DNA from: a virus
Virus record (IMG/VR): IMGVR_UViG_3300010885_008505
Span: 1-24,713 of that record
Reading direction: 5' to 3' (one strand)
DNA length: 24,713 nucleotides
Under the pieces are notes generated by a model. That model did not search any database. It had not been told where the DNA came from and saw only the letters and a list, made by a program, of their open reading frames with translations. A program made the translations under genes and the position numbers. Positions 3,100 to 24,713 of the stretch are shown one piece after another. The first letter of the stretch is position 1, and the number at the start of each line of letters is the position of its first letter.

Positions 3100-3108
3100 T
3101 AATTCATT

Positions 3109-3112
3109 CTCC
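3109..3112 (-). promoter_or_regulatory. Ribosome-binding site of gp55
   Basis: GGAG on the minus strand, nine bases from the ATG at 3099. It fixes the gp55 start and falls only a few bases after the predicted transcription start. Confidence 0.75.
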
Positions 3113-3121
3113 GGATGTTAT

Positions 3122-3150: not shown

Positions 3151-3157
3151 CTAAATA
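3124..3157 (+). promoter_or_regulatory. Candidate late promoter region for the baseplate operon
   Basis: Two weak matches to the T4 late box TATAAATA face the tail genes: TATAAACT (3124-3131) and ACTAAATA (3150-3157), each 6 of 8. A start after the second box would give a short leader with the AAGGA at 3167-3171. The first box overlaps the -10 of the divergent gp55 promoter, so use of one might interfere with the other. AT-rich DNA gives such matches by chance. Confidence 0.3.
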
Positions 3158-3166
3158 TTATACCAA

Positions 3167-3171
3167 AAGGA
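3167..3171 (+). promoter_or_regulatory. Ribosome-binding site of the gp48-like gene
   Basis: AAGGA nine bases before the ATG at 3181. It supports that start for the first gene of the rightward baseplate operon. Confidence 0.7.
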
Positions 3172-4173: not shown

Positions 4174-4174
4174 T

Positions 4175-4477
4175 ATGGCATCAAATTATACAAGTACAAG
4201 TCCATGGTTTAATACTCAGGTAACAAACAATTACCTTGATATATTATCAATACGACCAGTTAGTTCAGAAGTTGATGACTTCTTATATAACATTCAACCG
4301 CAATATACTTATCGTCCAGATTTGCTAGCATTTGACTTGTATGGCGATGCAACCTTATGGTGGGTATTTGCACAACGTAATATGGACGTACTTCAAGATC
4401 CAATTCTTGATTTCGTCCCAGGTACTAAAATTTACATTCCAAAAAACAGTAGTCTTCGAAATGTGTTAGGATTATAA
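4175..4477 (+). CDS. 53: gp53-like baseplate wedge protein, short form
   Basis: Baseplate wedge component. A single 100-aa domain with the gp53-type core: LDILSIRPVSSEVDDFLYNI (22-41), YTYRPDLLAFDLYGDATLWW (44-63) and FVPGTKIYIP (80-89), the last resembling the end of a LysM-like fold. T4 gp53 is about 196 aa, so roughly half is absent. It starts one base after the tube-cap stop and ends one base before the next gene, whose AGGA ribosome-binding site (4468-4471) lies within its final codons. Translational coupling along the operon is therefore likely. Confidence 0.82.
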   Translation: MASNYTSTSPWFNTQVTNNYLDILSIRPVSSEVDDFLYNIQPQYTYRPDLLAFDLYGDATLWWVFAQRNMDVLQDPILDFVPGTKIYIPKNSSLRNVLGL

Positions 4478-6689: not shown

Positions 6690-8066
6690 ATGTCAAAAAT
6701 TCCAAACGCTTTTCATAGTTCGTCAGCTCCTTCGAAGCCAGATCCCGGACCGTTCTTAGCTAGGGTGGTAAGCCATCAAGATCCATCATTCATGGGTAGT
6801 TTACAAGTAGAACTATTGCGCCCAATTGGTAATGATAGCAGTACTTCTGAATTAAGAACTGTCAGCTATTTAAGTCCATTTTATGGAGTCACAGGTGTTA
6901 AGTTCACAGGTGAAGATGCTGAAAATAATACCTATAATGAAACACAAAAAAGCTACGGCATGTGGATGGTACCTCCTGATGTAGGAACTACGGTGATGGT
7001 TATCTTTATACAGGGTGATCCCAAACGCGGTTATTGGATTGGCTGTATACAGGACGAGAATATGAATTTTATGTTGCCTGGAATTGCGGCAACTGAAGCA
7101 GTTGTTGAGGGCACTGGTCGATCTCCAGTAGCTGAATATAACAAAAAATTAAATAATACTAATAGCGATCCTACGACTTATCTAAAACCACAACATACTA
7201 ATCAATATCTTAATTTAGTTATTCAGGGACTTGACAAAGATGACATACGAGGGTTAACAACTAGTAGTGCAAGGCGAGAAGCACCTAGTATGGTGTTTGG
7301 TATCAGCACTCCGGGACCGGTTGACAAGAATACTAATGCTAAACAAGGTGCCGTTGGACAAAAAGATAGTCAAGTACCTAATGCATTTGTTAGTAGATTA
7401 GGCGGATCAACGTTTGTAATGGACGACGGTGATGCCGCGTTTCTTCGTAAGAAATATGCTGACGAAGGCCCGCCAGAGTACGCCGCTGTAGAGCAAAACG
7501 AAACAGATGGTAATGTCAACATACCACACAACGAACTGGTAAGAATTCGTACACGTACTGGACATCAGATCTTGTTGCACAACAGCGAAGATTTAATCTA
7601 TATTGGCAATGCTAGCGGCACTAGTTGGATTGAATTAACCAGTAACGGAAAAATAGACATATATGCTAAGGATAGTATTAGTGTACACAGTGAGAATGAT
7701 ATAAATTTTACTGCTGATCGAGATATAAATTTTACTGCTAAACGTAATTTTAATCTTAATTCTGCAGGTGCAAATAATTTAACAGCGACCGGAGCAACTA
7801 ATATTAGAAGCGGCGGCAACCATGTTGAAACTGCCGCTAACATTCATATGAACGGACCAGCGGCCGCAACTGCTCCTAAAGCCGCAAGGATACCACAACA
7901 CGAACCGTGGGCCGGACATGAAAACTTAAACCCAACAGAACATACTCCTGCAAAAACAGTAGCGGTCGCAAATCCAGTTGCCCCTACAGCAACTTATTGG
8001 AAGAAATATACAACCAGCATTGATACATTTAAACGTGTAACTCCGCCTGATCAAGGAAATCAATAA
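6690..8066 (+). CDS. 5: gp5-like central spike (tail needle) without a lysozyme domain
   Basis: Cell-puncturing spike of the baseplate hub. Residues about 20-125 form the gp5/VgrG-type OB-fold (PFLARVVSH, GSLQVELLRP, YGMWMVPPDVGTTVMVIF, GYWIGCI). Residues 126-280 are a linker containing GLTTSSARREAP and STPGP, with no recognisable T4-lysozyme domain. From V284 a beta-helix begins (VRIRTRTGHQILLHNSEDLIYI), with short strands such as INFTADRD and INFTAKRN, continuing to about 390. The tail carries PQHEPWAGHENLNPTEHTP (402-420), whose histidines could form a tip metal site. T4 gp5 is about 575 aa; the difference fits loss of the lysozyme domain. Start: ATG three bases after the hub stop, no clear ribosome-binding site, probably coupled. 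Confidence 0.85.
   Translation: MSKIPNAFHSSSAPSKPDPGPFLARVVSHQDPSFMGSLQVELLRPIGNDSSTSELRTVSYLSPFYGVTGVKFTGEDAENNTYNETQKSYGMWMVPPDVGTTVMVIFIQGDPKRGYWIGCIQDENMNFMLPGIAATEAVVEGTGRSPVAEYNKKLNNTNSDPTTYLKPQHTNQYLNLVIQGLDKDDIRGLTTSSARREAPSMVFGISTPGPVDKNTNAKQGAVGQKDSQVPNAFVSRLGGSTFVMDDGDAAFLRKKYADEGPPEYAAVEQNETDGNVNIPHNELVRIRTRTGHQILLHNSEDLIYIGNASGTSWIELTSNGKIDIYAKDSISVHSENDINFTADRDINFTAKRNFNLNSAGANNLTATGATNIRSGGNHVETAANIHMNGPAAATAPKAARIPQHEPWAGHENLNPTEHTPAKTVAVANPVAPTATYWKKYTTSIDTFKRVTPPDQGNQ
7698..7745 (+). repeat. Two 24-nt tandem units in the spike beta-helix
   Basis: GATATAAATTTTACTGCT begins both units (7698 and 7722), followed by GATCGA in the first and AAACGT in the second. They encode the octads DINFTADR and DINFTAKR. 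Eight-residue repeats are the strand period of gp5/VgrG triple-stranded beta-helices. Confidence 0.85.
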
Positions 8067-8509
8067 TGAGTTCAAACGCAAATCTTTATAAAAAAATAAC
8101 ATTACCGGCTGCAAGCCAACCGGATAACATTGGCCCTAAGATGTATAAGGGGTTTAGTACAATTAACACATCGTCTGAAAATCACAATCTATATGACTTT
8201 GAATTAATTAAACAGGACATACTTAATCATTTTAATACCCGTCAAGGCGAACGTTTGATGAACCCTACATTTGGCTGTGTTATATGGGATCTATTATTTG
8301 AACCTCTAACAGAAGAGCTTAAGAATTTGATATTAGACAATATTAACGTTATTATCAATTATGATCCCAGGATCACAGCTGAAAGTGTGATAGTTACTAG
8401 CTACGGTCAGGGTATACAAATACAATGTACATTAAAGTTTCTTCCTTATAATATCCAGCAATCACTACAATTAAGGTTTGATCAAGCCAATGGGCTTTTG
8501 GTCGCTTAA
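8066..8509 (+). CDS. 25: gp25-like baseplate wedge / sheath-initiator protein
   Basis: GPW/gp25 family protein, expected to link the wedge to the first sheath ring. It is 147 aa against 132 in T4. The core matches the family: a DFELIKQDILNHFNTRQGER stretch (44-63), with GER followed by NPTFGCVIWDLLFEPLTEEL (66-85), then a beta segment with INYDPRI and the C-terminal FLPYNIQQSLQLRF. The ATG shares one base with the spike stop (TAATG), indicating translational coupling. A 50-bp gap follows before gp6, the longest in the right arm. Confidence 0.93.
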   Translation: MSSNANLYKKITLPAASQPDNIGPKMYKGFSTINTSSENHNLYDFELIKQDILNHFNTRQGERLMNPTFGCVIWDLLFEPLTEELKNLILDNINVIINYDPRITAESVIVTSYGQGIQIQCTLKFLPYNIQQSLQLRFDQANGLLVA

Positions 8510-8559: not shown

Positions 8560-11500
8560 ATGAGTTCAACCGATAGACAAAATAATTTACTAATATCAGA
8601 AGATTGGAAAAAGATCTATCAGAGTTTCCGCAATGCAGATTTCCAAAGCTACGACTTTGAAAATTTACGCAGAACTATGATCCAGTATTTGCGCACAAAT
8701 TATCCTGAAGATTTTAACGATTACATTGAGTCTAGCGAATACCTTGCCCTAATTGACCTTATTGCATTCTTGGGCCAAAGCATAGCTTTCCGCGTTGATT
8801 TAAATGCTCGTGAAAATTTCTTAGAGCTTGCTACTCGTAGAGATAGTGTACTAAGACTAGCACGATTAATTAGTTATAATCCTAAACGAAATATTGCCGC
8901 CAGTGGTCTACTAAAAATTTCAACTGTACAAACAACTGAAACTGTTATAGATAGCAACGGTCGTAATGTTGCTAGCCAAGTTATTGCTTGGAACGATCCA
9001 AGCAATACTAATTGGTATGATCAATTTATTAAAGTGTTAAATGCCGCGTTCCCTCAAACACAACAATTTGGTAGTCCTGCCGCATCCGAAACAATTTACG
9101 GAGTTCCTACAAGTCAATATAGATTTAATGCAACAAATACAAATGCACCAATATACGGATTTACTAGTACAGTTGCTGGTCGATCTATGAATTTTGAAAT
9201 AACTAGCACAACGTTCACTGGGCAATCTTTTATTTACGAGGAGCCACCAAAACTTGGAAATAAACCAGCATGTGTTTATAGAGAAGACGGCCACGGCGCA
9301 GGAAGCTCTGGAACTGGGTTTTTCTTTTATTTTACCCAAGGCAATTTACAAGCCGGCCAATTTAATATTACTCAACCGAGCAGTAATGAAAGTATAGATA
9401 TCGCAACACAAAATATCAACAATGATGATGTGTGGTTATACTCATTAGATCAGAATGGCGCCGAAAGCGATCTATGGACAAAAGTAAGTTCTACTACTGG
9501 CAATAATATTATCTATAACAGTCTAAACAAAAGCATTAAAAATATCTACACTGTAGTTACTCGTACCGGCGACCAAGTTAGTTTAGCCTTTAGTGATGGT
9601 ACGTTTGGAACACTGCCATTAGGTGACTTTAGAACATATTATCGTATCAGCAACGGATTAGCTTATACAATTAATCCTGCCGATATTAGAAATATTAGTA
9701 TTAGTATTCCTTATATTTCAGCTTCGGGGACTGCAGAATCGATAACAATTACACTAGGATTAACATCTTCGGTTAGTAATGCGTCCGCGACAGAAGATAA
9801 CACATCTATAAAAAATAATGCTCCGCAAACTTACTATACACAAAATAGAATGATAACTGGTGAAGACTACAACATAAGTCCGTTATCTGTATCGCAACAA
9901 GTTGCAAAGATAAAAAGTGTTAATAGAACTAGCAGTGGTATAAGTCGTTATTTTGATCTAGCAGACCCAACGGGAAAATATTCTAGTACAAATTTGTTTG
10001 CAGACGACGGCGTTATATATCAAGATTTTTATTCTGATTCAGGCATTCAATTTAAATATGTGACTAAAACTGATATTCAAGCAGTTATATATAATCAAGT
10101 TACTGATATTTTAGGCAGTCCGGATCTATCTAATTTTTATTACAGTAACTTTGTTAACTTTCTAACAGCCAGTCTTAATATTGCATGGTATAAAACAACG
10201 TCTGACACTGTTTCTTCAACAGGATATGTTGGTGATACAGTTGATGCAACTCCTTATAAAGTAGGAACATATACTAATACTGACTTAAAATATCTAACTA
10301 AGGGTGCTCTAATCAAATTTACAGCTCCAGCCGGAAAATACTTTAATACAAAAAATGCAAATCAACTAGTAACTGGTACTGCAACTATTCCAGGAGCAAC
10401 AACTTACCTTTGGGCTGAAGTAGTAAGTGTTAACGGTGACGGAACAGCAAATAATACTGGAAAATTATCAACTGGATTTGGACCGATCACTTTAAATCGA
10501 TCAGTGCCGTCAGGTGCGATTCTTTCAAAATTAATTCCAGCGTTGACTACAACTATTAATTCAACTGTAATTACTACGATGATTGATTTAATTTTTGCAA
10601 ACAAGCCGTTTGGATTACGTTACAATGCCGCCGATCAAAGTTGGCAGATTATTTACGAAGCTAATCTTGACACATCATCTTCATTTAGTTTAGGTAACCA
10701 AGGAGATACAACTAATAGTCAACAAGATGCTAGTTGGTTACTACTATTCACAACTAATAATGAATATTATACAGTTACTTCGAGACTAGTGCGTTATGTA
10801 TTTGAAAGTGATAAGCAAGTAAGATTTTATTTTGATAGTACTAATCCTATTTACGACAACACTACTGGCACAGTTATATCTGATAAAATTAATGTGCTTA
10901 GTATAAACACACAACCGGATTTAGTATCAGCATTTACGGTAGATCAACCATGGAAAGTGGTAAAAGAATATGTTGGCATTGATGGATATGTTGATAATAA
11001 AAAAATTATAATCAGTTTTACTGAAGATTTAGATAACGGTGTTATTCAAGATCCTGAAACATTTTTAAATATTGTAGCACCAACAGTTAACCCTTTGACA
11101 AAATATATTATACAACAACGTTACTTGTTAAATGACGGCCAAGACGAGTATCAATATATTGACAATACTAGCAATACGGTTGTTATTGCACCAACACAGG
11201 CATCAGTATTAACTTCATTAACAACTTACCCTGATGGACAGTATTTTTATTTCGCAGATATCAAAGTCGTTAAAAAATTAACGTTATCAACTGCGTCATT
11301 AGTTCCAACTTTAGATTATAAAGTATACATCGGAAGAAGTAATTTAAAGTTTCAATATACGCATAGTGCTGATTATAATTCACGTATTGATCCAGGCGCA
11401 AGTAATATTATGGACGTCTATATCCTAACTAAAAATTATGATATAGCGTATAGACAATGGTTAGCTAATAACAGCCTATCCTATCCATTACCACCAAGTT

Positions 11501-12024
11501 CAGACGAATTATATAATTTAATTGCACCTAGTTTAAATTTAATCAAAGCAATATCGGACGAGATAGTATATCATCCAGTATCTTATAAAGTATTATTTGG
11601 CGCGTCTGCTGACAGAGAAGTACAAGCCACATTTAAGGTTACTAAAAACGTTAGTAGTGTTGTTTCAGATAACGATATTAAAGCTAGAGTAGTAACAGCA
11701 TTAAACTCATTTTTTGCATTAGATAATTGGAATTTTGGCGATACATTTTATTTTACAGAATTAGCAACATACGTTATGAATCAGTTAACTCCCGACATTA
11801 CTAACTTTGTTATTGTACCGTCACAGTCCGATTTATATTTCGGTAGTCTATTTGAAATAAATTGCCCAAGTAATAAGATCTTTGTTAACGGCGCAACAGT
11901 AGATAACATTGAAATTATTTCAGGAATTACTGGTTCAAATATTAGAACAGTCACTGGCAACGCAATGACAACTATATCATCAAATCAAAACACAACTAGT
12001 GCAAACTACGGAGCAATAAACTAA
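8560..12024 (+). CDS. 6: gp6-like baseplate wedge protein, enlarged
   Basis: Major wedge protein that in T4 forms the inner ring of the baseplate. The N-terminus is clearly gp6-like: DWKKIYQSF, TMIQYLRTNYPEDFNDYIES, then ALIDLIAFLGQSIAFRVDLN and RLARLISYNPKRN (within 1-111). NRMITGEDYNISP (from 429) and the C-terminal FYFTELATYVMNQLTPDI (from 1063) with FVIVPSQSDLYFGSLFEI and GATVDNIEII also fit the family. At 1154 aa it is far longer than T4 gp6 (660 aa). The extra length is mostly in the middle (about 545-1000), rich in Thr, Ser and Asn and predicted beta. The ATG follows a strong AGGA. Its stop overlaps the next start by one base (TAATG). Confidence 0.88.
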   Translation: MSSTDRQNNLLISEDWKKIYQSFRNADFQSYDFENLRRTMIQYLRTNYPEDFNDYIESSEYLALIDLIAFLGQSIAFRVDLNARENFLELATRRDSVLRLARLISYNPKRNIAASGLLKISTVQTTETVIDSNGRNVASQVIAWNDPSNTNWYDQFIKVLNAAFPQTQQFGSPAASETIYGVPTSQYRFNATNTNAPIYGFTSTVAGRSMNFEITSTTFTGQSFIYEEPPKLGNKPACVYREDGHGAGSSGTGFFFYFTQGNLQAGQFNITQPSSNESIDIATQNINNDDVWLYSLDQNGAESDLWTKVSSTTGNNIIYNSLNKSIKNIYTVVTRTGDQVSLAFSDGTFGTLPLGDFRTYYRISNGLAYTINPADIRNISISIPYISASGTAESITITLGLTSSVSNASATEDNTSIKNNAPQTYYTQNRMITGEDYNISPLSVSQQVAKIKSVNRTSSGISRYFDLADPTGKYSSTNLFADDGVIYQDFYSDSGIQFKYVTKTDIQAVIYNQVTDILGSPDLSNFYYSNFVNFLTASLNIAWYKTTSDTVSSTGYVGDTVDATPYKVGTYTNTDLKYLTKGALIKFTAPAGKYFNTKNANQLVTGTATIPGATTYLWAEVVSVNGDGTANNTGKLSTGFGPITLNRSVPSGAILSKLIPALTTTINSTVITTMIDLIFANKPFGLRYNAADQSWQIIYEANLDTSSSFSLGNQGDTTNSQQDASWLLLFTTNNEYYTVTSRLVRYVFESDKQVRFYFDSTNPIYDNTTGTVISDKINVLSINTQPDLVSAFTVDQPWKVVKEYVGIDGYVDNKKIIISFTEDLDNGVIQDPETFLNIVAPTVNPLTKYIIQQRYLLNDGQDEYQYIDNTSNTVVIAPTQASVLTSLTTYPDGQYFYFADIKVVKKLTLSTASLVPTLDYKVYIGRSNLKFQYTHSADYNSRIDPGASNIMDVYILTKNYDIAYRQWLANNSLSYPLPPSSDELYNLIAPSLNLIKAISDEIVYHPVSYKVLFGASADREVQATFKVTKNVSSVVSDNDIKARVVTALNSFFALDNWNFGDTFYFTELATYVMNQLTPDITNFVIVPSQSDLYFGSLFEINCPSNKIFVNGATVDNIEIISGITGSNIRTVTGNAMTTISSNQNTTSANYGAIN

Positions 12025-15000
12025 TGGCCGATAGTAATAAAAATCCAACCGGTACACCGGCTATTGGAGAGAATTTCCTTCCAAACTTTTATAAGACTGA
12101 TGCAAACAAAAAGTTTTTACAGGCCACCATAGATCAAGTTGTACAACCTGGCTCTGTCAAAAAAATTAATGGATTTATTGGAAGAAAAACATCAAAGACA
12201 GCAACAGGTGCTGATGTTTATTTAGAAGCTCCGTCCGCACAACGAGAGCACTATCAACTTGAACCTAGTTTCACAATAAAAGATCCTTTAGGTAATACTA
12301 CTTTCTTTAAAGATTATATTGATTACATTAATCAAGTTAGTGTATTTGGCGGCGATATAAAAAATCACGCTCGATTAAACGCCCAGGAATTTTATTCATG
12401 GGACCCGCATATCAATTGGGATAAATTTGTAAATTTTCAAAACTATTATTGGCTCCCATACGGCCCTGATGTTATCACAATTTATGGTCAACAAAAATCT
12501 ATTATCAGCACATACACTGTTGAATTGCAAACCGAAGGATCGGATTATCAATACGTATTCACACCAGACGGCTTAACACCAAATCCTGTCCTAAAACTAT
12601 ACAGAGGCCAAACATATAGATTTGAGATCAATAGTCCTGGAAATCCGTTCAGCATTAAAATAGATAGATCGATAGGAAAGTTTTCTCAATACACTGACGG
12701 CGTCGAAGGCAACAGTGTGACTAAAGGTACAATTACTTTTGAAGTTCCACTAGATGCTCCGAGTTTACTTTTTTATCAAAGTGGGACAGATAGAAATCTA
12801 GGTGGCGCCATTGAAATTTCTGATATCGAAGAAAATAGTGTTATTGATGTTGAAAAAGAGTTAATTGGTAAAAAGAATTATAGTCTACCTAACGGAACAC
12901 CATTGAGCAACGGTATGAAAGTTGCATTTGTAGGAAACGTTACACCGGAAAAATATGCCAGCGGCGAATATTATGTTGAGGGTGTTGGATCAAACATTAA
13001 ATTAATCAATAAAAATATTTTAGAAATTATTACAACTTATACTGCCACCGAAGCAGTATTATTTGATGATACCCCGTTTGATGCCCAACCTTTTGGAGAT
13101 TCTTCTAACTTTGCGTCTACAAAAGATTACCTAACGGTTAGTCGATCTAGTAGAGATCATAATCCGTGGTCACGATACAATCGTTGGTTTCATAAGGACG
13201 TTATAGAAACTGTTGCGGCTTATAATAAGCAGACAATTTCATTAGATCAGACTGCTAGGGCTACTAGACCTATTATCGAATTCAATTCAGATTTACGATT
13301 ATTTAATTTTGGAACAACAGCAATTGATGATGTAGATGTTATTGATACCTATACAAAAGATGTGTTTTCTACTATCGAGGGAAGTAGGGGATATAACGTT
13401 GATGGTGTGCCACTAACTGACGGATTGCTAGTTTTATTTACGGCTGATCCTGATCGATTAGTGCAGAATAATGTTTATAAAGTAACATTTATAAATATCT
13501 CCGGATACAGACAAATTCATTTAGAATTAGTTTCTCAACCTGCGATTGATAATGTTGTTCTAATTAGAAGAGGCAATAAAAATCAAGGGCAAATGTATTG
13601 GTACAATGGCACTACTTGGAAATTAGCTCAACAAAAAACTAACACTAATCAATCTCCACTATTTGATATTGTGGATAACAACAAAATTTCATATGGGAAT
13701 GCTTCTGAATATCCAGGTACTACTTTTATAGGAACCTCGATTTTTAATTATAAAGTTGCATCGACAGGTGTTGTTGATCCGTCTCTTGGTTTTAGATTAA
13801 CTTATAAAAATATTAATAATATTGGCGACATTGTTTTTAACTTTACACTAGCAACTGATACCTTTCAATACAAATTACCCACAACTACTGCGTTAACTAC
13901 TGTATCTATCAAACAAGGGTATCTTGTTTGTCAGGATTATGTCGGTAATGCTGTTTATCAAAATGGCTGGCAAAAAGCATTAGTATCAACAATCCAAGCA
14001 GGTGTTCGAGTTTACAAGAATAGTAACTTAACAAACAATTTTCCTATAGATATTTTTAATAAGATTGACGACCTTTCAGATTTAATAGTAAAAGTGTATG
14101 TTAACGGTCTTCGATTAGATCCTGCATATTGGTCGATAGTTGATAAACCAGTTTATAAACAAATTAAACTAACTACTGCGATTGGTTTATTAGATGTACT
14201 AACTATTAAAACTTTTGCAAAACAAGCAATTAACAGTAATGGCTATTATGAGATTCCTATTAATCTTCAAAATAATCCAATGAATACTGAGATTGGCGAT
14301 TTTACACTAGGTGAAGTTTCTGATCACGTTAGTTCTATTATTGATAATATACCTGAACTATTTGACAAATCTACAGAATCGTCTGCTATAATGACCACTG
14401 GTAATCAAACATATGATCCAGACCATCCAAACATTCGAGACTTAGGAAATATTACCCCATACGGAACAAAATTTGTACAGCATAGCGGTCCTGCAAGTCT
14501 ATCAACCTATCATATAACATCTGAAACTAATAACATAGTACGAGCGATTGAGAAGAGTCGAGAAGACTACCTTAATTTTAAAAGAAATTTTATTAAAGTT
14601 GCTACTAGCCTCGGGATTGATTCTAATCCAGTGCACCAAGTTGATTTAATACTAAAAAAGATTAATAAAGATAAACCAAAAACATTTCCATATTATCTTA
14701 GTGATATGGTTCCTTACGGGTCGTTCACTGAAACAATCATTCGAGTAGTTGACTATAGAATAAAAAGTTATCCGTTAACATCTGTTTTTAATTTAGATAA
14801 GTTATCTAATCAAGCAGTTGGTGTATATCATAATGGATATGCAACATCAGTTGGAAATCAATTACTATACGGTACACATTATACATTTAACGATCAAGGT
14901 TTTATTGTATTAACTGATACTGTTCCGTTACAAAACAACGATAATATTACTATACGAGAATATGATAATACTGACGGGTCTTTCGTTCCTGAAACTCCTA

Positions 15001-18000
15001 CAAAATTAGGTATCTGGCCAAAATTTGAACCAAAAATTTATTTAGATACAACATTAATTAATCCTGTTAAAATGATTCAAGGACATGATGGGAGTTTAAT
15101 AGCAGCCTATAATGATTACAGAGATGATATTATATTAGAAATTGAAAAAAGAATTTTTAATAATATAAAAGTAAAATATGATAGTAGCGTATATGATATA
15201 GCTGATATCGTACCAAGTTTTAATAGAACTAATGCATATAGTTTGTCAGAGTTTAATCAAGTATTGGCACCTAATTTTTATAAATGGTCAGTACTAGTTG
15301 ATCAGGATTTTACTAAGCCTTTAAAATACGATATTAATAATAGTTTTACTTATAACTATACCGGCCATTCGGCAATAGACGGATCAACTATTCCTGGTTA
15401 TTGGAGAGGAATTTATCAGTACATGCTCGATACTGATCGCCCAAATATATGCCCATGGGAAATGTTAGGATTTAGTCAGCAACCGACTTGGTGGGTGCCA
15501 GTATACGGACCGGCTCCGTACACAAGAGACAATCAAGTAATGTGGCAAGACATTGCTGATGGTGTAGTAAGAGAGCCCGGCGCCCCTGCAATTACGTTAA
15601 CGAAGTATGCAAAATCATTTTTAATCAAGCATATTCCTGTCGATAATACTGGCAAGTTGATTAGTCCGCTTGCTTCGGGCCTTGCATTTGGCACAGTTAC
15701 ACAGCAAACTGATGGAGATTTTGTATTCGGTGATATTGCACCAGTTGAAGCCGCATGGAGAAGAAGTAGTCATTTTCCGTTCAGTGTCATTTTAGCTTCC
15801 ATGTTATTAACACCTGCAAAAACATTTGGGGTGTTACTAGATAGATCTAGAATTGTAAGAAATTTAGCTAATCAATTAGTATATAGTGATACTAATTTAC
15901 GAATTACTCCTGCGAGTATAAAGCTACCGAGTATTAGTTCTAGTAAAAATAGAATTCAAACAGCAGGTATAATTAATTATCTAACAAATTATATTTTAAG
16001 CGATAATTTAAAATCATATACAGCATATCAATATGATTTGACAAACATGATGGCAAAATTAAGCTATCGTGTAGCCGGGTATACTAGCAAACAAAAATTT
16101 AATTTATTATTAGATTCAAAAACTTATGCATCATCCGGATCAGTTTTTGTACCTCAAGAAGATTATGACATTGTTTTAAACAGTTCAAATCCTATTAAAA
16201 AAATTACATATAGCGGAATAATTATTACTAAATTCTCTAACGGATTTTCTGTTAAGGGGTATAGTCTAACTGAACCATATTTTAAATATTATCAGTATAC
16301 ACAATCTGGATCAACTATAAATGTTGGCGGTATATCAGAATCATTTAATACATGGGATATTAGAAAACAATATGCCGCCGGTACGATTGTTAGGGTAAAT
16401 CAAGCGTTTTATAGGGTTAAAACAACGCACACTACTTCAACAAATTTTGAGCCGCAGTACTATCAATCGTTGCCTAGACTACCAATTATTGGTGGCCGAG
16501 ATGCAGTATTCCGCAAATCATGGAAACGATCAGATCCGATAATTGCTCCATACGGCACTTATTTTTCTAACGTTCAAGCCGTAGTAGACTTTATATTAGG
16601 GTACGGTGAATATTTAAAAGATCAAGGATTTATATTTGATGAGTTTAATAAACGCTTAGGTACAGTAACTAACTGGGAAACTAGTGCTAAAGAGTTCATG
16701 TTCTGGTCTACTCAAAACTGGAGTAGTGGTAAGAATCAATGGAAAGATTGGAATCCGACTATTGATATTGCGTATGATGAAGTTGTACAATATAATGGAG
16801 TATTTCATCGTGCTATAAAAAATGTGCCAGCCGGGGCAACCTTTGACCTTACAAATTTTGTTAAATTAGATAGTTTAACAACGGTAGGTAACGGAGTAAT
16901 TAGTCTTAGTCCAAGTGCAGATAAAATTAGTTTTAATACTAATCTTTCGGTCGTAGATGATATTTCTAATCCATTTAACGGATATGAAATTTTTAAAGTT
17001 GACGGTACTCCTTTAGAAAAATCATATATCAATTCTTATAGAAAAGACAATGCAGTTAGTTATGCGCCGATAGGTAATGACGGTATATATGGTGCAAGTT
17101 TTTATCTTGTACAAAAAGAACAAGTAGTCATAATGTCTAATGCTACAATGTTTAATGATACAGTCTATAATCCATCAACTGGTTATAGACAAGAACGAAT
17201 AACCGTGTCAGGTTATGTTAGTGTTGGCTGGTACGGTGGATTTGATGTACCGGGATTTATATTTGATGAAGCTATAGTTAATGATTGGCAACCGTGGGAC
17301 GGTTATAATCTTGGTGATATTGTTAAGTATAAGCAGTTTTACTACAGTGCTAACTCTGCCCTACAAGGAACTGAAAATTTTAATTCAAATAACTGGATAA
17401 AATTAACTACAGCTCCAGTACCAGCATTACTACCTAACTGGACTTATAAAGCAGGTCAATTTACAGATTTTTATAGTTTAGATAGCGACAACTTTGATGC
17501 GACCCAACAAAAAGTTGCACAGCACTTAATTGGATATCAAAAGCGATCGTATCTCGATAATATTATTAAAGATGATGTTAGTGAATTTAAATTCTATCAA
17601 GGTATGATTCGTGAAAAAGGAACACAGAATAGTTTAAACAAATTATTTGATGTACTTAGTGCCGACGGACAAGAAAGTTTAACATTTAAAGAAGAATGGG
17701 CTATTCGTTTAGGACAATATGGCGCTAGTGGATCTTTTGAAAATATTGAATTTGTTCTCGACGAAGGACAATTTAAAATTAATCCTCAGGGATTTTACCT
17801 TGTTAAACAGCCTGATCCAGAAGCATTAGATTACCTTATTAGACAAACACCTAATAACATATATTTAAAACCTATTGGTTATAATAGTGCACCATGGCCC
17901 GTTTTAGAAAATTATCAACCTTATCTTCGATCTGCGGGATATGTAAGACCGTCAGATGTGTCTTTTTCTCTGCAGTCTATAGATGATATTGTTGATTATG

Positions 18001-21000
18001 ATGTAACTACTCTTAACAACGGGTCGTATATTTGGTGTTCATTTGAAAATGCCAGTTGGAACATTTATAGATTTACTGATGTAGATTTTCAAGTCACTGA
18101 TGTAGCATACGACGGTAGCGTGATGACAGTTACATTGTTAGATTTAGTACCTCTACCGACCGGAACATGGATCGGTATAACTCAAACTAATAAAGTTAAT
18201 GGGTTTTATAAAATAACCAGCGTAACTTTAAATTCATTTACAGTTAATGCTACTATCACTAATTGGGAAACATTTACTGAACAATCTAGCATAATTGTTT
18301 ATGCACTATTAACACAAAGAAGCCAATCGATTGATACTATCGATGAAATCGTTCCTAGAAAATTATCAAAAGGTGAAACACTATGGACTGACGATGGTGG
18401 CAATGGTAACTGGGCAACATGGGAATATGCTCCGGTATATACGAAATCAATATTATCTAATTCTAATCCGGCGACCGGATTACGCTACGGAAGATCGGTA
18501 GCTGTTACACAAGACGGATCTATTCTTGCAATTTCTACAGCTAACGGAGAAGTTGTTACTTGGGATAAAGCAAGTGTTAATACGCCGTGGATACAGCGAC
18601 AGTTGATTTTAAAACCAATTATTACTACACAGCCGCAAGCAGATAATTTGTATGCAACTGTGATAGCATTTAGTAATGACAAAACTTGGCTAGCTACCGG
18701 AAGTCCGGCAGTCGGGTACGCCCATACGAAGTATCGAGGCCCATATAATGATAGTATCAATAATTATCTTATCGGTGATATTGTATCAACTGTGGTGCCA
18801 ACACCAGAGCAAGCCGATTATGAAAATGCTCTTGCCACATTAGAAGCCTATTTTGCTGGTGCAAATTGGGCAGGTGTCGGCTATCCAGCAAGCATAGCTT
18901 CTTATCAGGCACTGATAAGTTCAACAAATCCACTCATACAGGCAATCTGGATTCAAACGGCTAAAACAGTTGCAGATACATTTGATGCTTGGCAAGCGGT
19001 CTTAACTAACGTATATTTCTATAGAGCGTTACAAAACTTATTACCAGGACGAACACCCCCGACTGGGCAAACATCAAATATCTATTGGGAAAGTATTCCA
19101 TATATTCCGATAGAAGAATCGGGAACAGCAAGTAGTCTACCAGCACAGGGCGTAGTTCATCTTTATAAGAAAGATACTGATAACATTTATACACTTGTTG
19201 ATTCGTTCGTAAGTCCTACTCCGCGATCGAATGAATTATTTGGGTCTAGTATACGATTTTTTAGTGGAGTACCGTTCGGCTCAACAAATAGTAAACTAAC
19301 GGATCAACTTATTGTTGGTGCACCTGGTACTAACTCTATATATAAATTTGCTTATGGTTCGGTTGCTGAAGCAACGTCAGCATTTAACCCAGTGGGAACT
19401 GTAGGCGGAATTATTGCAGTAACATCAACTGCTGGTATATTGCCCGGCATGATAGTTTCAGGTACAGGATTCACTGGCGGTCAAACAGTACTAACCGTAC
19501 TAAGTTCAACTAAGTTAGAACTAACTGGCAGTCCTAATTCTACACCGGCCGGTGTATTAACTTTTAGTGTTGCTGGATGGTTTTTTAATTCTGTAAATGC
19601 CGCAAGTTACTACGGTCAAGGATTAGCTTATAATTTTGGTTCTAACATAGTTGTAAGTGGCAATGCAACGTCTGCATATGCAGTAATATCTTCGGGTAGT
19701 TCAATAACTGGAAGAGTTACGATTATGTCAGCTACTGGCTCACAAACTATATACGGGACTAGATCTAGTTTTGGTACATCTGTTGCAATTTCAAATGATG
19801 CAACATATATTGCAATCTCAGATATACTTGCTACTGGTGTTAAAGTTAATCAAGGCGCAGTGTACATTTATAAGTTAACTAATGGCACCTATGTGTTATA
19901 TCAAACATTAGTTAATCATAATCCAGAAAATTCCGGATTCTTTGGAAGTAAAATTGCTTTTATGTCTGATAAAACTCTTGCAATTTATAATTCAAGCGGC
20001 GACACAGTTAATTCAATGACATTTGACAGTAATGAAACAACATTTGATAAAAAGAGCACAACATTTGTTACTAAACAAATCGACAGCGGAAGAATAGATG
20101 TATACGATAATTATTATTCTAAGTGGGTGTTTAGTGAAATGCTTGATATTAAAAATTCGTTAAATGACGGATATGGTACTGGATTTGCAGTCGGCTTAGA
20201 TCATATTGTTGTAAGTTCACCAAATGCATTGGATCAGAATTTAAATTCTGGAATTATATATGATTATCATAAGGCTCCAAATACATATACTTGGACAAAG
20301 AAACGTAGTGAAATTGCAAAACCTGATGTGAGCAAGATTAAAAAAGCATATCTATATAATAGAACGACCGGAACACTAATCAAATACTTAGATGTTATAG
20401 ACCCATTACAAGGAAAAATTGCCGGTCCTGCAAGAGAAGAAATTACATACAGCTCATTTTATGATCCAGCAGTATATTCGGTCGGTAATGATAATGTTAC
20501 AGTGAATTCAAATAAACCGTGGACTTCTGACCCTATTGGAAAACTATGGTGGGATTTAAGAACTACTAAATTTATTGAACCGTATGACTCTGATATTGTA
20601 TATCGAACAAGTAATTGGAATTCGTTAGCAACCGGAGCAACAGTTGACGTATATGAGTGGGTGTCAAGTGTATATAAACCTGCCGATTGGGATAATTTAG
20701 CAGATACAGAAACTGGACTTACAAAAGGTATAAGTGGTAAGAGTTTATATGGAAATTCAACGTATAGCGTAAGTCAAGTATACGATACTATAAGTCAAAC
20801 TTTTAAAAATACATATTACTATTGGGTAAAAAACAAAACTCTTATTCCTAATGTATCAGGAAGATACATTTCATCATCAGATGTTGCATCATTAATTGCA
20901 AATCCAAGAGGTGCGGGATATCAGTATCTATCAGTAACAGGTATCAATTCATTTAGTTTAGTTAATGTTAAATCAATTTTGCATTCAACAGATGTTGTAC

Positions 21001-24000
21001 TATCTGTTGAATACTGGACCACAGATAAGATTGATAGCAACATACATAGTCATTGGAAAATTATCAGCGACGAATCGACTACAACATTACCAACAGCAAT
21101 TGAACAAAAATGGTTTGACAGTTTGTGTGGCAGAGATCGTAACGGACTTACTGTTCCTGATTTAAAACAACCAATTAAATTGCGCTACGGTATTGAAAAT
21201 CGACCACGTCAAAGTATGTTTGTAAATCGATTTGAAGCATTAAAACAATTTATTGAGCAAGTTAATATTATTTTATCTAAACATCAAATTGTACAATCGA
21301 GAAATTTACTAGCATTAGAACAATATGATTCTTATCCTGCTTTTATAACATTAGTTGACGGCACTAAAATACTGCCAAGCGGATTATATGATACTACTAT
21401 TGATACTGATGCTGAATTATCGTATGTAAGTATCGGAGCATTTAAACGTCCGAGTATTAGTCCTGTTATTGTAGACGGAAAAATCACAGGGATTACAATT
21501 AATTCTGCAGGGTTAGGATATTTGTATCCACCGTTTATCGAAATTACAGGGAGTGGTACCGGTGCAACAGTTAGGGCTAAAATTAATACACTAGGACAAA
21601 TAATTGATGCAACGGTGTTATCATCAGGTGAAGGATACGACTCAAATACTGTAGCAATAGTAAGAGATTACTCAGTATTAGTCTATAGTGATGCTCAGTC
21701 GACGGGTGCTTGGGCAATATATTCTTATGATCCACTAGGAAAAAATTGGTCAAGAACTAATACTAAAACATACGATGTACGAAATCATTGGTCTTATATT
21801 GATTGGTATGCTACTGGATATAATCAATTCTCAGCCGCAGACTACGGAGTAGATTCTATTCCGGATTTAAATTCTATCAATCCATCAATAGGGGAAACGG
21901 TTTTAGTTAGATCCGGCTCTGTCAGCGGCTGGCAACTATTGTATCGTTATGCAATATCGACTAGTACTGATTGGACACAATCTTATCAAGTAGTAGGAGT
22001 ACAAAAAGGAACTATACAGTTTAAGAAAAGTTTTTATGAATTTACTAACACTAGTATCGGCTATGATGATTCCACTTTTGATGGCGCGGTATTTGACGGC
22101 GAAGCAGTTAACGAATTAAGATTGGTGCTAAATGCATTGAAAGATGATATACTAGTTGGCGACCTTAGACAACATTATATAGACTTATTTTTTACTAGTG
22201 TAAGATATGCACTTAGTGAACAAGTATATGTTGATTGGATTTTTAAAACTAGTTTTATCAAAGCCCAGCATAATATTGGTCAACTAAGCCAACCAGTAAC
22301 ATATCAAACTGATAACTTATTAAATTTCCAAGAATATGTTAACGAAGTAAAACCATATAGAACGAAAGTTCGTGAGTATGTAACAGCATACTCTAAGATT
22401 GACAATTCAAAAACAATGGTAAGTGATTTTGATTTACCAGTAGTGTATGACAACGGAAAATTAACAACTATCAATACTTGGGTAGCTAATGGAAAGATAG
22501 AAGCAGACAACACTGCAATACAACTGTACCCTTGGAAAAATTGGTTAGATAATGTAGGATTTATTGTTACTGAACTGCATATCGTCGATAGTGGAAGCGG
22601 ATACGTATCAGAACCAGCAGTGAAGATTACTAATAACTCAGGCGCCGGCGCAACCGCTAGGGCATTTATATCTAATGGAAAAGTAAACAGAATAGTATTA
22701 CTGTCAACGGGATTAGGCTACTTGTCAGCGCCTACTGTAGAGATTATCGGAGGTCTTTCAGCTACAGGAGTATCGGCTCGAGTAGTTGCATACATCGGAA
22801 ATAGCTTAGATGCTACTAAACAACATGGTGTAGTACGATCAACACATATAAAAATTAAATTTGATAGATTGACTCAAGGATACTACGTAACTCAATTAGG
22901 ACAAACTGAAACATTTACAGGTTCAGGATCGCGTCTACAATTTAATCTAACATGGGCACCTGACATTCGTATTGGCGAAAGTACAGTAACTATTACTGCA
23001 CCTGGACAGACTAGTGAAATACTTGTATTAAGAAATCTATATACATTAGCAATTAAAAAATCTACTGCAAAAGGATATACAACATATTCTGGAACTATAA
23101 CATTTATTAATCCGCCTGCAAACTTATCTATAATTAAAGTGACTTATATTAAGGACTGGGATTTACTTAATGCGGCTGATAGAACACAGTATTATTATAA
23201 TCCTCAAGACGGGCAATTAGGTAATGAGCTATCGCAATTAATGACTGGTATTGATTATGGTGGTGTTATAGTTAGCGGGTTAGGATTTGATGTGTCAGCT
23301 GGCTGGGGAGCACTTCCTTATTATACAGATAAATGGGATACGTTTGATGCAACATATAGTGACTATATTGTAACGGTTACTGCTAATACGCATTCATTTA
23401 CATTGCCATATACTCCGACAGTCGGAACATTATTAAACGTATATTATTCACGTAATACTGTAACTACACATACAAGTGACGGTGTAGGATTGAAATATCA
23501 ATATCCTGCATCAAATAAGACACCAATAGTTACGGCATCAACGATACAAACATCGTTGGCACCAGTTACATTGTCTGGAACTGCTGGAACTCTTTTATTA
23601 AGAGTAAATTCGACGACTCGAATTAAAATAGGTGATGTGGTGTCTTGCTCTACAGTGGCAGCATTTGCTTTAAACACAGTAGTATTAAGTATCAATAGCG
23701 GTACAAATACTGTTACACTAAGTCAGATCTTGTACGTAAACGTTCCAACAAGCACAAGCGTGTTGTTTACTCGAGTATTAACTCAACCGACAGATTTTTC
23801 AATCTTTACTAATGGTACTGTTGCACTAACTACTCCAATACTATCCGGTACCCAATTAAATATTATAACAGAAATGGAACCATTAAGACTTGATGATCCA
23901 AACTTTGGAACTCCTAGTCAAACAAATACTAACGCAATTATGTCTTCTGCGACTGCTAGTGGTTCAACCTCAACATTTACTATACCGGGAACGTTTACAG

Positions 24001-24713
24001 TACTGAACGGTGACAAGTTTATTTGGCGCCAAAGTACTAGTGATGGTTCGATCAAACCTCAAGATGCTGATTACGACACAGCATTAACCGGAGGAAATCT
24101 TGCATATACTAGTGCTACAGGTCTTGCCGCAGAGGATATACTAGTAGACGGCGACGGATTAGTAACTCCAACATCTAGTCCGGCACCTGAAGAGGTAGTT
24201 CCAGGACAAGTTGTAGATAGTGTTGCAATTAAAGTATTTGATCAATTTCCAGCAGGCAGTGCAAATATTAAAGTTGATAACTATCTTGCTGACGGAATAC
24301 AGACAATATTTAAAATTACTCAAACACCGTCAAGCCCTCGAGCAGTAATTGTTAAGGTAAATTCTGATATAAAAAATTATGATACAGCATATACTGTTGA
24401 CTATAAAAATAAACTAGTAAATTTTAATACCGCACCTACTGCTAACAGTACTATCTCTATTTTTAGTCTTGGATTTAACGGTGAAAACATTTTAGACGTT
24501 GATTATTTTGTAGCTAACGGAACTACGGTTGAATTTATAACTAAAGCTCCGTGGTTAGATACTGTTACAAGTTTAGTTTACATAAATGGTATTGCAACTA
24601 GTCCTAAATTGTTTAAAACAGATAATACATATGTGAGTGCAAACAGGATTGGATTAAATTTTGCAGTTGCTCCGGCATCTGGTTCTGTGATTAACTATAT
24701 TATTGTTAGTGGC
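12024..24713 (+). CDS. Giant gp7-like baseplate wedge / virion structural protein, 3'-truncated by the window edge
   Basis: An ORF of 4230 codons without a stop, still open at the window end. The start overlaps the gp6 stop (TAATG), and its place after gp6 is that of T4 gene 7. N-terminal wedge-like features: LPNFY (19-23) and WDPHINWDKFVNFQNYYWLP (126-145). Further conserved-looking blocks are HNPWSRYNRWFHKD (379-392), RPNICPWEMLGF with WWVPVYGPAPYT (1139-1167), FKFYQGMIREKGTQNSLNKL (1855-1874; compare the KGIEASYKFLF region of T4 gp7) and EVKPYRTKVREY (3441-3452). Between them lie beta-rich modules listed separately. T4 gp7 is 1032 aa. Composition is Thr/Ser/Asn/Tyr-rich and very poor in Cys, with no signal peptide or membrane segment seen. 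The structural role is secure; the gp7 name is an inference from position and short motifs. Confidence 0.85.
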   Translation, partial: MADSNKNPTGTPAIGENFLPNFYKTDANKKFLQATIDQVVQPGSVKKINGFIGRKTSKTATGADVYLEAPSAQREHYQLEPSFTIKDPLGNTTFFKDYIDYINQVSVFGGDIKNHARLNAQEFYSWDPHINWDKFVNFQNYYWLPYGPDVITIYGQQKSIISTYTVELQTEGSDYQYVFTPDGLTPNPVLKLYRGQTYRFEINSPGNPFSIKIDRSIGKFSQYTDGVEGNSVTKGTITFEVPLDAPSLLFYQSGTDRNLGGAIEISDIEENSVIDVEKELIGKKNYSLPNGTPLSNGMKVAFVGNVTPEKYASGEYYVEGVGSNIKLINKNILEIITTYTATEAVLFDDTPFDAQPFGDSSNFASTKDYLTVSRSSRDHNPWSRYNRWFHKDVIETVAAYNKQTISLDQTARATRPIIEFNSDLRLFNFGTTAIDDVDVIDTYTKDVFSTIEGSRGYNVDGVPLTDGLLVLFTADPDRLVQNNVYKVTFINISGYRQIHLELVSQPAIDNVVLIRRGNKNQGQMYWYNGTTWKLAQQKTNTNQSPLFDIVDNNKISYGNASEYPGTTFIGTSIFNYKVASTGVVDPSLGFRLTYKNINNIGDIVFNFTLATDTFQYKLPTTTALTTVSIKQGYLVCQDYVGNAVYQNGWQKALVSTIQAGVRVYKNSNLTNNFPIDIFNKIDDLSDLIVKVYVNGLRLDPAYWSIVDKPVYKQIKLTTAIGLLDVLTIKTFAKQAINSNGYYEIPINLQNNPMNTEIGDFTLGEVSDHVSSIIDNIPELFDKSTESSAIMTTGNQTYDPDHPNIRDLGNITPYGTKFVQHSGPASLSTYHITSETNNIVRAIEKSREDYLNFKRNFIKVATSLGIDSNPVHQVDLILKKINKDKPKTFPYYLSDMVPYGSFTETIIRVVDYRIKSYPLTSVFNLDKLSNQAVGVYHNGYATSVGNQLLYGTHYTFNDQGFIVLTDTVPLQNNDNITIREYDNTDGSFVPETPTKLGIWPKFEPKIYLDTTLINPVKMIQGHDGSLIAAYNDYRDDIILEIEKRIFNNIKVKYDSSVYDIADIVPSFNRTNAYSLSEFNQVLAPNFYKWSVLVDQDFTKPLKYDINNSFTYNYTGHSAIDGSTIPGYWRGIYQYMLDTDRPNICPWEMLGFSQQPTWWVPVYGPAPYTRDNQVMWQDIADGVVREPGAPAITLTKYAKSFLIKHIPVDNTGKLISPLASGLAFGTVTQQTDGDFVFGDIAPVEAAWRRSSHFPFSVILASMLLTPAKTFGVLLDRSRIVRNLANQLVYSDTNLRITPASIKLPSISSSKNRIQTAGIINYLTNYILSDNLKSYTAYQYDLTNMMAKLSYRVAGYTSKQKFNLLLDSKTYASSGSVFVPQEDYDIVLNSSNPIKKITYSGIIITKFSNGFSVKGYSLTEPYFKYYQYTQSGSTINVGGISESFNTWDIRKQYAAGTIVRVNQAFYRVKTTHTTSTNFEPQYYQSLPRLPIIGGRDAVFRKSWKRSDPIIAPYGTYFSNVQAVVDFILGYGEYLKDQGFIFDEFNKRLGTVTNWETSAKEFMFWSTQNWSSGKNQWKDWNPTIDIAYDEVVQYNGVFHRAIKNVPAGATFDLTNFVKLDSLTTVGNGVISLSPSADKISFNTNLSVVDDISNPFNGYEIFKVDGTPLEKSYINSYRKDNAVSYAPIGNDGIYGASFYLVQKEQVVIMSNATMFNDTVYNPSTGYRQERITVSGYVSVGWYGGFDVPGFIFDEAIVNDWQPWDGYNLGDIVKYKQFYYSANSALQGTENFNSNNWIKLTTAPVPALLPNWTYKAGQFTDFYSLDSDNFDATQQKVAQHLIGYQKRSYLDNIIKDDVSEFKFYQGMIREKGTQNSLNKLFDVLSADGQESLTFKEEWAIRLGQYGASGSFENIEFVLDEGQFKINPQGFYLVKQPDPEALDYLIRQTPNNIYLKPIGYNSAPWPVLENYQPYLRSAGYVRPSDVSFSLQSIDDIVDYDVTTLNNGSYIWCSFENASWNIYRFTDVDFQVTDVAYDGSVMTVTLLDLVPLPTGTWIGITQTNKVNGFYKITSVTLNSFTVNATITNWETFTEQSSIIVYALLTQRSQSIDTIDEIVPRKLSKGETLWTDDGGNGNWATWEYAPVYTKSILSNSNPATGLRYGRSVAVTQDGSILAISTANGEVVTWDKASVNTPWIQRQLILKPIITTQPQADNLYATVIAFSNDKTWLATGSPAVGYAHTKYRGPYNDSINNYLIGDIVSTVVPTPEQADYENALATLEAYFAGANWAGVGYPASIASYQALISSTNPLIQAIWIQTAKTVADTFDAWQAVLTNVYFYRALQNLLPGRTPPTGQTSNIYWESIPYIPIEESGTASSLPAQGVVHLYKKDTDNIYTLVDSFVSPTPRSNELFGSSIRFFSGVPFGSTNSKLTDQLIVGAPGTNSIYKFAYGSVAEATSAFNPVGTVGGIIAVTSTAGILPGMIVSGTGFTGGQTVLTVLSSTKLELTGSPNSTPAGVLTFSVAGWFFNSVNAASYYGQGLAYNFGSNIVVSGNATSAYAVISSGSSITGRVTIMSATGSQTIYGTRSSFGTSVAISNDATYIAISDILATGVKVNQGAVYIYKLTNGTYVLYQTLVNHNPENSGFFGSKIAFMSDKTLAIYNSSGDTVNSMTFDSNETTFDKKSTTFVTKQIDSGRIDVYDNYYSKWVFSEMLDIKNSLNDGYGTGFAVGLDHIVVSSPNALDQNLNSGIIYDYHKAPNTYTWTKKRSEIAKPDVSKIKKAYLYNRTTGTLIKYLDVIDPLQGKIAGPAREEITYSSFYDPAVYSVGNDNVTVNSNKPWTSDPIGKLWWDLRTTKFIEPYDSDIVYRTSNWNSLATGATVDVYEWVSSVYKPADWDNLADTETGLTKGISGKSLYGNSTYSVSQVYDTISQTFKNTYYYWVKNKTLIPNVSGRYISSSDVASLIANPRGAGYQYLSVTGINSFSLVNVKSILHSTDVVLSVEYWTTDKIDSNIHSHWKIISDESTTTLPTAIEQKWFDSLCGRDRNGLTVPDLKQPIKLRYGIENRPRQSMFVNRFEALKQFIEQVNIILSKHQIVQSRNLLALEQYDSYPAFITLVDGTKILPSGLYDTTIDTDAELSYVSIGAFKRPSISPVIVDGKITGITINSAGLGYLYPPFIEITGSGTGATVRAKINTLGQIIDATVLSSGEGYDSNTVAIVRDYSVLVYSDAQSTGAWAIYSYDPLGKNWSRTNTKTYDVRNHWSYIDWYATGYNQFSAADYGVDSIPDLNSINPSIGETVLVRSGSVSGWQLLYRYAISTSTDWTQSYQVVGVQKGTIQFKKSFYEFTNTSIGYDDSTFDGAVFDGEAVNELRLVLNALKDDILVGDLRQHYIDLFFTSVRYALSEQVYVDWIFKTSFIKAQHNIGQLSQPVTYQTDNLLNFQEYVNEVKPYRTKVREYVTAYSKIDNSKTMVSDFDLPVVYDNGKLTTINTWVANGKIEADNTAIQLYPWKNWLDNVGFIVTELHIVDSGSGYVSEPAVKITNNSGAGATARAFISNGKVNRIVLLSTGLGYLSAPTVEIIGGLSATGVSARVVAYIGNSLDATKQHGVVRSTHIKIKFDRLTQGYYVTQLGQTETFTGSGSRLQFNLTWAPDIRIGESTVTITAPGQTSEILVLRNLYTLAIKKSTAKGYTTYSGTITFINPPANLSIIKVTYIKDWDLLNAADRTQYYYNPQDGQLGNELSQLMTGIDYGGVIVSGLGFDVSAGWGALPYYTDKWDTFDATYSDYIVTVTANTHSFTLPYTPTVGTLLNVYYSRNTVTTHTSDGVGLKYQYPASNKTPIVTASTIQTSLAPVTLSGTAGTLLLRVNSTTRIKIGDVVSCSTVAAFALNTVVLSINSGTNTVTLSQILYVNVPTSTSVLFTRVLTQPTDFSIFTNGTVALTTPILSGTQLNIITEMEPLRLDDPNFGTPSQTNTNAIMSSATASGSTSTFTIPGTFTVLNGDKFIWRQSTSDGSIKPQDADYDTALTGGNLAYTSATGLAAEDILVDGDGLVTPTSSPAPEEVVPGQVVDSVAIKVFDQFPAGSANIKVDNYLADGIQTIFKITQTPSSPRAVIVKVNSDIKNYDTAYTVDYKNKLVNFNTAPTANSTISIFSLGFNGENILDVDYFVANGTTVEFITKAPWLDTVTSLVYINGIATSPKLFKTDNTYVSANRIGLNFAVAPASGSVINYIIVSG
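16353..17410 (+). other. Three chitin-binding-like (CBM5/12-style) segments in the giant protein
   Basis: Three segments share the pattern W, a few residues, Y/A, G or D, [IV]V, Y or V, then an aromatic pair: WDIRKQYAAGTIVRVNQAFY from residue 1444; WNPTIDIAYDEVVQYNGVFH from 1576; WDGYNLGDIVKYKQFYYSAN from 1758. This W..Y..GD.V.Y...YY signature is typical of small carbohydrate-binding modules of chitinases and some phage tail proteins. The third is closest to consensus. Glycan binding is inferred, not shown. Confidence 0.5.
18477..20313 (+). other. Apparent seven-bladed FG-GAP-like beta-propeller in the giant protein
   Basis: Seven strand motifs of the type [YF]-G-x-[ST]-[VI]-A followed by a hydrophobic strand ending in a small turn start near residues 2155 (YGRSVAVTQDGSILAIST), 2210 (YATVIAFSNDKTWLATGSP), 2406 (FGSSIRFF, then LIVGAPG), 2530 (YGQGLAYNFGSNIVVSGN), 2583 (FGTSVAISNDATYIAISD), 2640 (FGSKIAFMSDKTLAIY) and 2717 (YGTGFAVGLDHIVVSSP). 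Several are followed by a 'VYIYK/IYDYHK' strand. Spacing is about 55 residues, with larger insertions after blades 2 and 3. Seven is the usual count for integrin-type propellers. Confidence 0.55.
21468..22785 (+). repeat. Paired GxGY beta-repeats in the giant protein
   Basis: Two related segments, about 361 residues apart, each hold two half-units. Copy 1 (about 3150-3215): INSAGLGYLYPPFIEITGSG, then GATVRAKINTLG, then VLSSGEGY. Copy 2 (about 3515-3580): IVDSGSGYVSEPAVKITNNS, then GATARAFISNGK, then LLSTGLGYLSAPTVEI. The shared pattern is GxGYxxxPxhxI followed by GAT.RA.I. The repeats are diverged at DNA level, so the duplication is old. Between the copies lies a block with VYVDWIFKTSF and EVKPYRTKVREY that looks more like conserved structural sequence. 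Confidence 0.65.
24210..24713 (+). repeat. C-terminal beta-module repeats at the window end
   Basis: At least two consecutive modules share a plan: a 'D(N/Y)Y/F.A(D/N)G..T.F' opening strand, then a 'V.V.(I/V)N..' strand, a short hairpin, and '[IV].F..AP..(G/N)S.I' closing strands. One opens at DNYLADGIQTIFKIT and the next at DYFVANGTTVEFIT. The second is cut by the window edge. This resembles tandem beta-sandwich repeats of tail-fibre-like proteins; the number beyond the window is unknown. Confidence 0.5.

Follow-up and report, generated by a model that had tools for sequence, protein, structure and literature searches.

A giant reading frame directly after gp6 probably encodes the gp7-equivalent baseplate wedge scaffold of a T4-superfamily jumbo phage

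We analyzed a 24,713-base stretch of viral DNA (the window), which is an entire IMG/VR record and a linear fragment of a larger viral genome. From the ATG at position 12024, a frame runs without a stop up to the last base, and its product is probably the oversized gp7 counterpart, a baseplate wedge scaffold, of a T4-superfamily jumbo phage. Position and precedent make a gp7-equivalent its most likely identity, a question that sequence alone cannot decide. The genes and signals that define its position are the following:

4175..4477, plus strand: gp53-type wedge protein (PHROG/Pfam matches)
6690..8066, plus strand: gp5-type hub protein with OB domain and DUF2345 (PHROG/Pfam matches)
8066..8509, plus strand: gp25-type baseplate wedge protein (PHROG/Pfam matches)
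8560..12024, plus strand: gp6-type baseplate wedge protein, 1,154 aa (phrog_10646, phrog_219)
12010..12026, plus strand: ribosome-binding-like GGAG; the gp6 stop overlaps the start of the giant in TAATG (sequence)
12024..24713, plus strand: giant ORF, 4,230 codons, 3'-truncated at the contig end, phrog_10938 family member

The first-pass annotation had claimed an ORF of at least 4,230 codons directly after gp6, and both parts of this claim were borne out: the frame is open to the contig end, a homologue in contig L085 is complete at 4,808 aa, and the gene at 8560–12024 matched phrog_10646 (E 4e-297) as well as phrog_219, the gp6 family of T4 type (E 2e-19). The ATG of the giant overlaps the gp6 stop codon by one base and the GGAG lies 10 nt upstream, an arrangement that suggests translational coupling of both genes. 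Since the L085 homologue showed 74% identity to the window protein over 4,205 aligned residues, with a dN of 0.18 and a dS of 1.55 (dN/dS about 0.12), we consider the frame a genuine coding sequence, and it is under strong purifying selection. The L085 protein runs 588 residues past the window end, i.e., about 590 residues are absent from the window giant; the full-length protein should have about 4,800–4,820 aa, and further complete relatives measured 4,702–4,946 aa. Similar long open frames were present on more than 100 contigs from independent metagenomes.

On the plus strand, the window carries genes for a phrog_12050 virion protein, gp53, a phrog_11190 virion protein, gp5, gp25, gp6 and the giant, in this order, while SbcC/gp46-like, SbcD/gp47-like and gp55 late sigma genes occupy the minus strand of its left part. 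The succession gp53, gp5, gp25, gp6, giant is the T4 wedge-gene order, and nearly the same order was found in PA5oct, RaK2 and CBB. Further, the giant directly follows gp6 in Atu_ph07, PA5oct, RaK2, CBB, Phosso and Vibrio 2.275.O. An exception was Salicola phage SCTP-2 (MF360958), where the giant lies near 128–139 kb and gp6 near 231–235 kb, about 90 kb apart. In SCTP-2, the gp6 match was divided over two annotated genes, and the giant was adjoined by another very long gene (9.3 kb). With regard to the hub, no lysozyme domain was detected in the gp5-type protein of the window (458 aa), which is unlike RaK2 gp078 (886 aa).

A conserved protein of about 200 aa (GHIKI..P..GE...DKRNAIHYENM) was encoded at the giant or a few genes further on in L091 (19753–20361) and L103 (14039–14653), where it matched phrog_11259, and also in L098, L108, L126 and L127. 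Genes of about this size at a similar place were PA5oct gp357 (detected in the virion by ESI-MS/MS), Atu_ph07 gp177 and Phosso 293. This protein is possibly a small partner of the giant.

In the PHROGs profile search, the giant matched phrog_10938, a 'virion structural protein', over five stretches (E=0, 1067.7 bits), and each of the core blocks A, C, D and E mapped below also gave a match by itself. By its sequence, the giant is a member of an already known family, mostly without an assigned function. When three pieces of it were used in tblastn, relatives were found in 57 to 82 deposited phages, counts that take in some module-only cyanophage matches, all with less than 60% identity; one query gave 557 matching stretches in IMG/VR contigs, and a search of BFVD returned mainly the giant's own family, Atu_ph07 included. 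Three marine metagenome-assembled bacterial genomes also hold a contig with the giant, and these are likely phage contigs. Virion presence is known from mass spectrometry of relatives: 21 virion peptides were reported for the homologue CBB_236 (PMC5259590) and 17 for phAPEC6 gp245 (381.9 kDa), listed directly after the 'baseplate wedge' gp244 (PMC7247149), and the record of the PA5oct giant gene carries an ESI-MS/MS note.

To map the protein, core blocks were defined by BLAST against seven divergent isolates (RaK2, CBB, PA5oct, Atu_ph07, Phosso, SCTP-2 and Vibrio 2.275.O). Core blocks and inserted modules alternate as follows:

12072..12509, plus strand: core block A, residues 17–162, common to all seven isolate homologues
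12525..12863, plus strand: cupredoxin-like accessory domain, residues 168–280 (Foldseek rusticyanin/CueO; C-terminal domain of cyanophage gp9, phrog_677)
13116..14723, plus strand: core block B1, residues 365–900 (BLAST against isolates)
14979..16313, plus strand: core block B2, residues 986–1430 (BLAST; most pLDDT 80–94)
16344..16478, plus strand: CBM5/12 (chitin-binding type 3)-like module 1, residues 1441–1485 (fold match)
16491..17993, plus strand: core block C, residues 1490–1990 (BLAST against isolates)
16728..16889, plus strand: CBM5/12-like module 2, residues 1569–1622 (fold match)
17271..17414, plus strand: CBM5/12-like module 3, residues 1750–1797 (a single weak fold match)
17586..17657, plus strand: possible gp7-type 'KGT' motif FKFYQGMIREKGTQNSLNKLFDVL, residues 1855–1878 (profile comparison, suggestive only)
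18321..20243, plus strand: beta-propeller-like insertion, residues 2100–2740 (FG-GAP repeats)
20292..21278, plus strand: core block D, residues 2757–3085 (BLAST against isolates)
21441..21662, plus strand: GSGY-type beta repeat 1, residues 3140–3213, common to cyanophage gp7 and gp8
21771..22493, plus strand: core block E, residues 3250–3490, with the family hallmark EVKPYRTKxREY at 3441
22557..22793, plus strand: GSGY-type beta repeat 2, residues 3512–3590, common to cyanophage gp7 and gp8
24270..24698, plus strand: tandem beta unit of about 65 aa in two copies, residues 4083–4146 and 4158–4225

The blocks A, B1, B2, C, D and E recur in the same order, with 23–39% identity, in the RaK2-type giants of phrog_10938 (RaK2 gp465, 3,326 aa; CBB_236, 3,340 aa; PA5oct gp355, 3,857 aa; Atu_ph07 gp180, 4,449 aa), which in most cases also lie directly 3' of gp6 and several of which were found in virions by mass spectrometry. 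In contrast with these isolates, the window and its aquatic relatives add the cupredoxin-like domain and the FG-GAP propeller, neither of which was detected by BLAST in the seven isolate homologues, and are longer (about 4,800 aa). In four of five relatives, FG-GAP repeats exceeded the Pfam cut-off, and in the window they fell slightly below it; CBM_5_12 was barely above it. Tail fibres, gp9 and cyanophage gp7 contain homologues of the added modules. In line with the first-pass suggestion that inserted domains have accumulated in a wedge protein, the position, the conserved core and the added modules fit together. A match of the giant to phrog_460 ('head closure Hc2') was explained by GSGY repeat 2 and discarded.

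The stretch between blocks C and D appears as an insertion hot spot: it holds the propeller in the window and about 210 aa in RaK2, while in Atu_ph07 and Phosso it extends over about 1,530 aa, most of which BLAST did not match to the window. In Atu_ph07, whose giant lies at 19905–33254 of L002, it corresponds to residues about 1650–3170.

With regard to structure, the model of residues 1–975 was unreliable for block A (pLDDT about 35), and Foldseek/VIA searches with residues 975–2010 matched mainly the chitin-binding-like modules; the confidently modelled block B2 matched no solved fold in these searches. When three block alignments and one relative in full length were searched against PDB sequences, only chitinase modules, one tailspike match and chance matches were returned.

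The argument for gp7 within the sequence centers on block C. T4 and cyanophage gp7 have in common the motif FY-x-x-KG[T/I]-x-x-S with a hydrophobic helix behind it, and among 28 slices of the window giant this motif was best placed at residues 1855–1878 (hhalign E 0.003–0.011). The score was reached by two of 300 column shuffles, and the motif statistics alone are weak. All of 57 aquatic relatives have KGT, as do six of the seven divergent isolates (KGS in RaK2), and residues 1801–2000 are the slowest-evolving stretch of the giant (87% identity, dN 0.09 to L085). An hmmsearch --max with the gp7-motif profile returned the orthologous positions without significance. The AF2 model around the motif was unreliable (pLDDT about 30–46), as might be anticipated if these helices need gp6 for folding. 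The core bundle and trifurcation of T4 and XM1 are built from a pair of gp6 chains and a single gp7-type chain, and gp7 orthologues including the small XM1 gp17 have been placed in this (gp6)2-gp7 bundle (PMC10457771, PMC6300606); the KGT region is a suggestive candidate for the corresponding contact with gp6. The first-pass annotation had placed 'wedge-type' blocks at residues 19–145, about 1855 and about 3440; all of them lie in family core blocks, but only the one near 1855 resembles gp7 proteins, and weakly so.

Beyond the motif, searches by PHROGs, Pfam, hhalign, Foldseek and PDB sequences yielded nothing that matched T4 gp7 over its full length or over a domain. When 28 family slices were compared by hhalign with T4 gp6, gp7, gp8, gp9, gp10 and gp11, together with reversed controls, only GSGY repeats matched; besides these, slice-wise comparison yielded the short, suggestive KGT motif and no further match to gp7, gp8 or gp10. 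The phrog_964 (gp7) profile matched neither the window giant nor the complete jumbo genomes, a model that recovered accepted cyanophage gp7 only at 8e-5 (P-SSM2) and that of S-PM2 not at all. Likewise, the Pfam models Baseplate_wedge and Tail_P2_I (P2 gpI) gave no match in block C, and Tail_P2_I also misses accepted gp7s; P2 gpI relatives from viral contigs were near-identical and of no use as a profile. T4 gp7 (5IV5) was not among the Foldseek/VIA matches of residues 975–2010, which is not counter-evidence, because the relevant region has low pLDDT. T4-type gp7, gp10 and gp12 are themselves so divergent that a comparative study divided them into up to nine clusters (PMC3037559).

A gp7 of this size has precedent, since T4-like cyanophages carry genes for 3,048–6,378 aa at this locus, and those of P-SSM2, P-HM1 and S-RIM2 are annotated as gp7. 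These proteins (S-RIM2, 6,378 aa; P-SSM2, 5,195 aa; P-HM1, 4,446 aa; S-PM2, 3,048 aa) resemble the window giant in following gp6 immediately, in their thousands of residues, in their GSGY repeats and in the candidate KGT motif. They differ in that they have the motif close to the N-terminus (about residue 200, in S-RIM2 about 700, vs. 1,860 in the window), in that core blocks A, B, D and E are not recognisable, and in that gp8 follows gp7 in P-SSM2, P-HM1 and ACG-2014e (with one small gene between in S-PM2). T4 gp7, the baseplate wedge initiator (1,032 aa), occupies the same locus after gp6 and its FYSTKGIEASYKFLFKVL resembles the window motif, but it has a quarter of the length, shows no detectable homology to the window giant outside the motif and is followed by gp8, gp9, gp10 and gp11. 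In P2 gpI, the KGT motif aligns in register with that of gp7; the minimal gp7 orthologues XM1 gp17 and P2 gpI have only about 180–240 aa and no sequence match to block C.

Gp7-equivalence is thus supported by the wedge-gene order, the gp6–giant pair of relatives, the giant cyanophage gp7s at the same place, the location of the candidate KGT motif in the slowest-evolving stretch, the presence of relatives in virions and the failure to detect any other phrog_964 gp7 in complete jumbo genomes. It is weakened by the missing T4 gp7 match, the motif statistics, the low pLDDT, the separation of gp6 and giant in SCTP-2 and the failure of the Pfam wedge models in block C. The strongest rival, which we consider unlikely, is that the giant is a peripheral fibre- or adhesin-like virion protein merely neighbouring gp6, with an undetected small protein or an enlarged gp6 in the gp7 role. 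Its accessory modules are indeed of the tail-fibre/adhesin kind, but it is the core blocks that are the most conserved parts of the giant relative to L085. Similarly, the distance between both genes in SCTP-2 would suit a mere neighbour, whereas in nearly all relatives one giant stands beside gp6; and while there is no significant gp7 homology and the window gp6 is enlarged (1,154 aa vs. 660 in T4), the slowest-evolving block contains the KGT-like motif and accepted giant gp7s of cyanophages occupy the same locus.

A fusion of gp7 with the peripheral proteins gp8, gp9 and gp10 in one chain, as proposed in the first pass, is very improbable. That proposal had drawn on the lack of gp8, gp9 and gp10 in the window, which is true but uninformative, as the window ends inside the giant gene. 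In relatives, the fusion is already refuted for gp9/gp10: directly after the giant in L085, L091 and L093 comes a gene that opens with a gp9/gp10-type N-terminal domain, the same signature lies just past the giant in the contig of 223 kb to which L054 belongs, and in PA5oct a separate gene matches the gp10 C-terminus. Inside the giant, this N-terminal domain was not found, and only the cupredoxin-like domain of the cyanophage gp9 C-terminus is shared. For gp8, the fusion could draw on its undetectability in the complete jumbo genomes tested and on GSGY repeats like those of cyanophage gp8, as it could for gp9 on the shared cupredoxin-like domain. However, phrog_977 gave no match in the giant, and phrog_438 matched only via the GSGY repeat part (model positions about 175–332 of 478). 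With T4- and cyanophage-type gp8 profiles, the complete genomes of RaK2 and PA5oct gave no match, and the sole match in Atu_ph07 was to the GSGY repeat of its giant; across jumbo genomes, matches of gp8 families fell essentially only in this promiscuous repeat, mostly inside the giant. Promiscuous modules are all that is in common, and the defining folds of gp8, gp9 and gp10 are not among them. Gp8 may have been lost in jumbo phages, may be extremely divergent or may have had its role absorbed. In L093, the gp9/gp10-type gene is followed by a 1,906-aa ORF (16271–21991) without any PHROG match.

An assembly artefact or chance open frame, for which only the contig end within the ORF could speak, is refuted for practical purposes by purifying selection along the whole length and by more than 100 independent homologues that share its architecture; a chimera is unlikely because the window has even GC and no large internal DNA repeats.

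As a gp7-equivalent, one giant would be present per wedge and six per virion, translated in a coupled manner with gp6. The helical KGT region (residues about 1800–1900, block C) would link a pair of gp6 chains within the (gp6)2-gp7 core bundle and trifurcation, on which each wedge is founded, and core blocks A, B1, B2, D and E would form a rigid wedge arm. The inserted cupredoxin-like, three chitin-binding-like, propeller, GSGY and C-terminal beta-repeat modules would face outwards, where they might dock tail fibres or touch surface glycans. A further, doubtful extension is that the jumbo gp7 scaffold inherited the platform function from the missing gp8 and itself turned into the receptor-facing surface, with six copies of a ~530-kDa protein binding host glycans through its inserted cupredoxin-like, propeller and chitin-binding-like modules. 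If this were true, host range could evolve by domain swaps inside a wedge protein and not in tail fibres.

This analysis adds the core/module map, the candidate gp7 core at residues 1800–1900 and the evidence against a gp9/gp10 fusion. The family is very widespread and supplies one of the largest proteins in many jumbo virions, with annotations that do not go beyond 'structural' or 'hypothetical', and none of the papers found resolves the baseplate of a RaK2-like phage. Taken together, a likely gp7 of jumbo phages, a map of its core and exchangeable modules and an undetectable gp8 provide a concrete working model for studies of RaK2-like phages.
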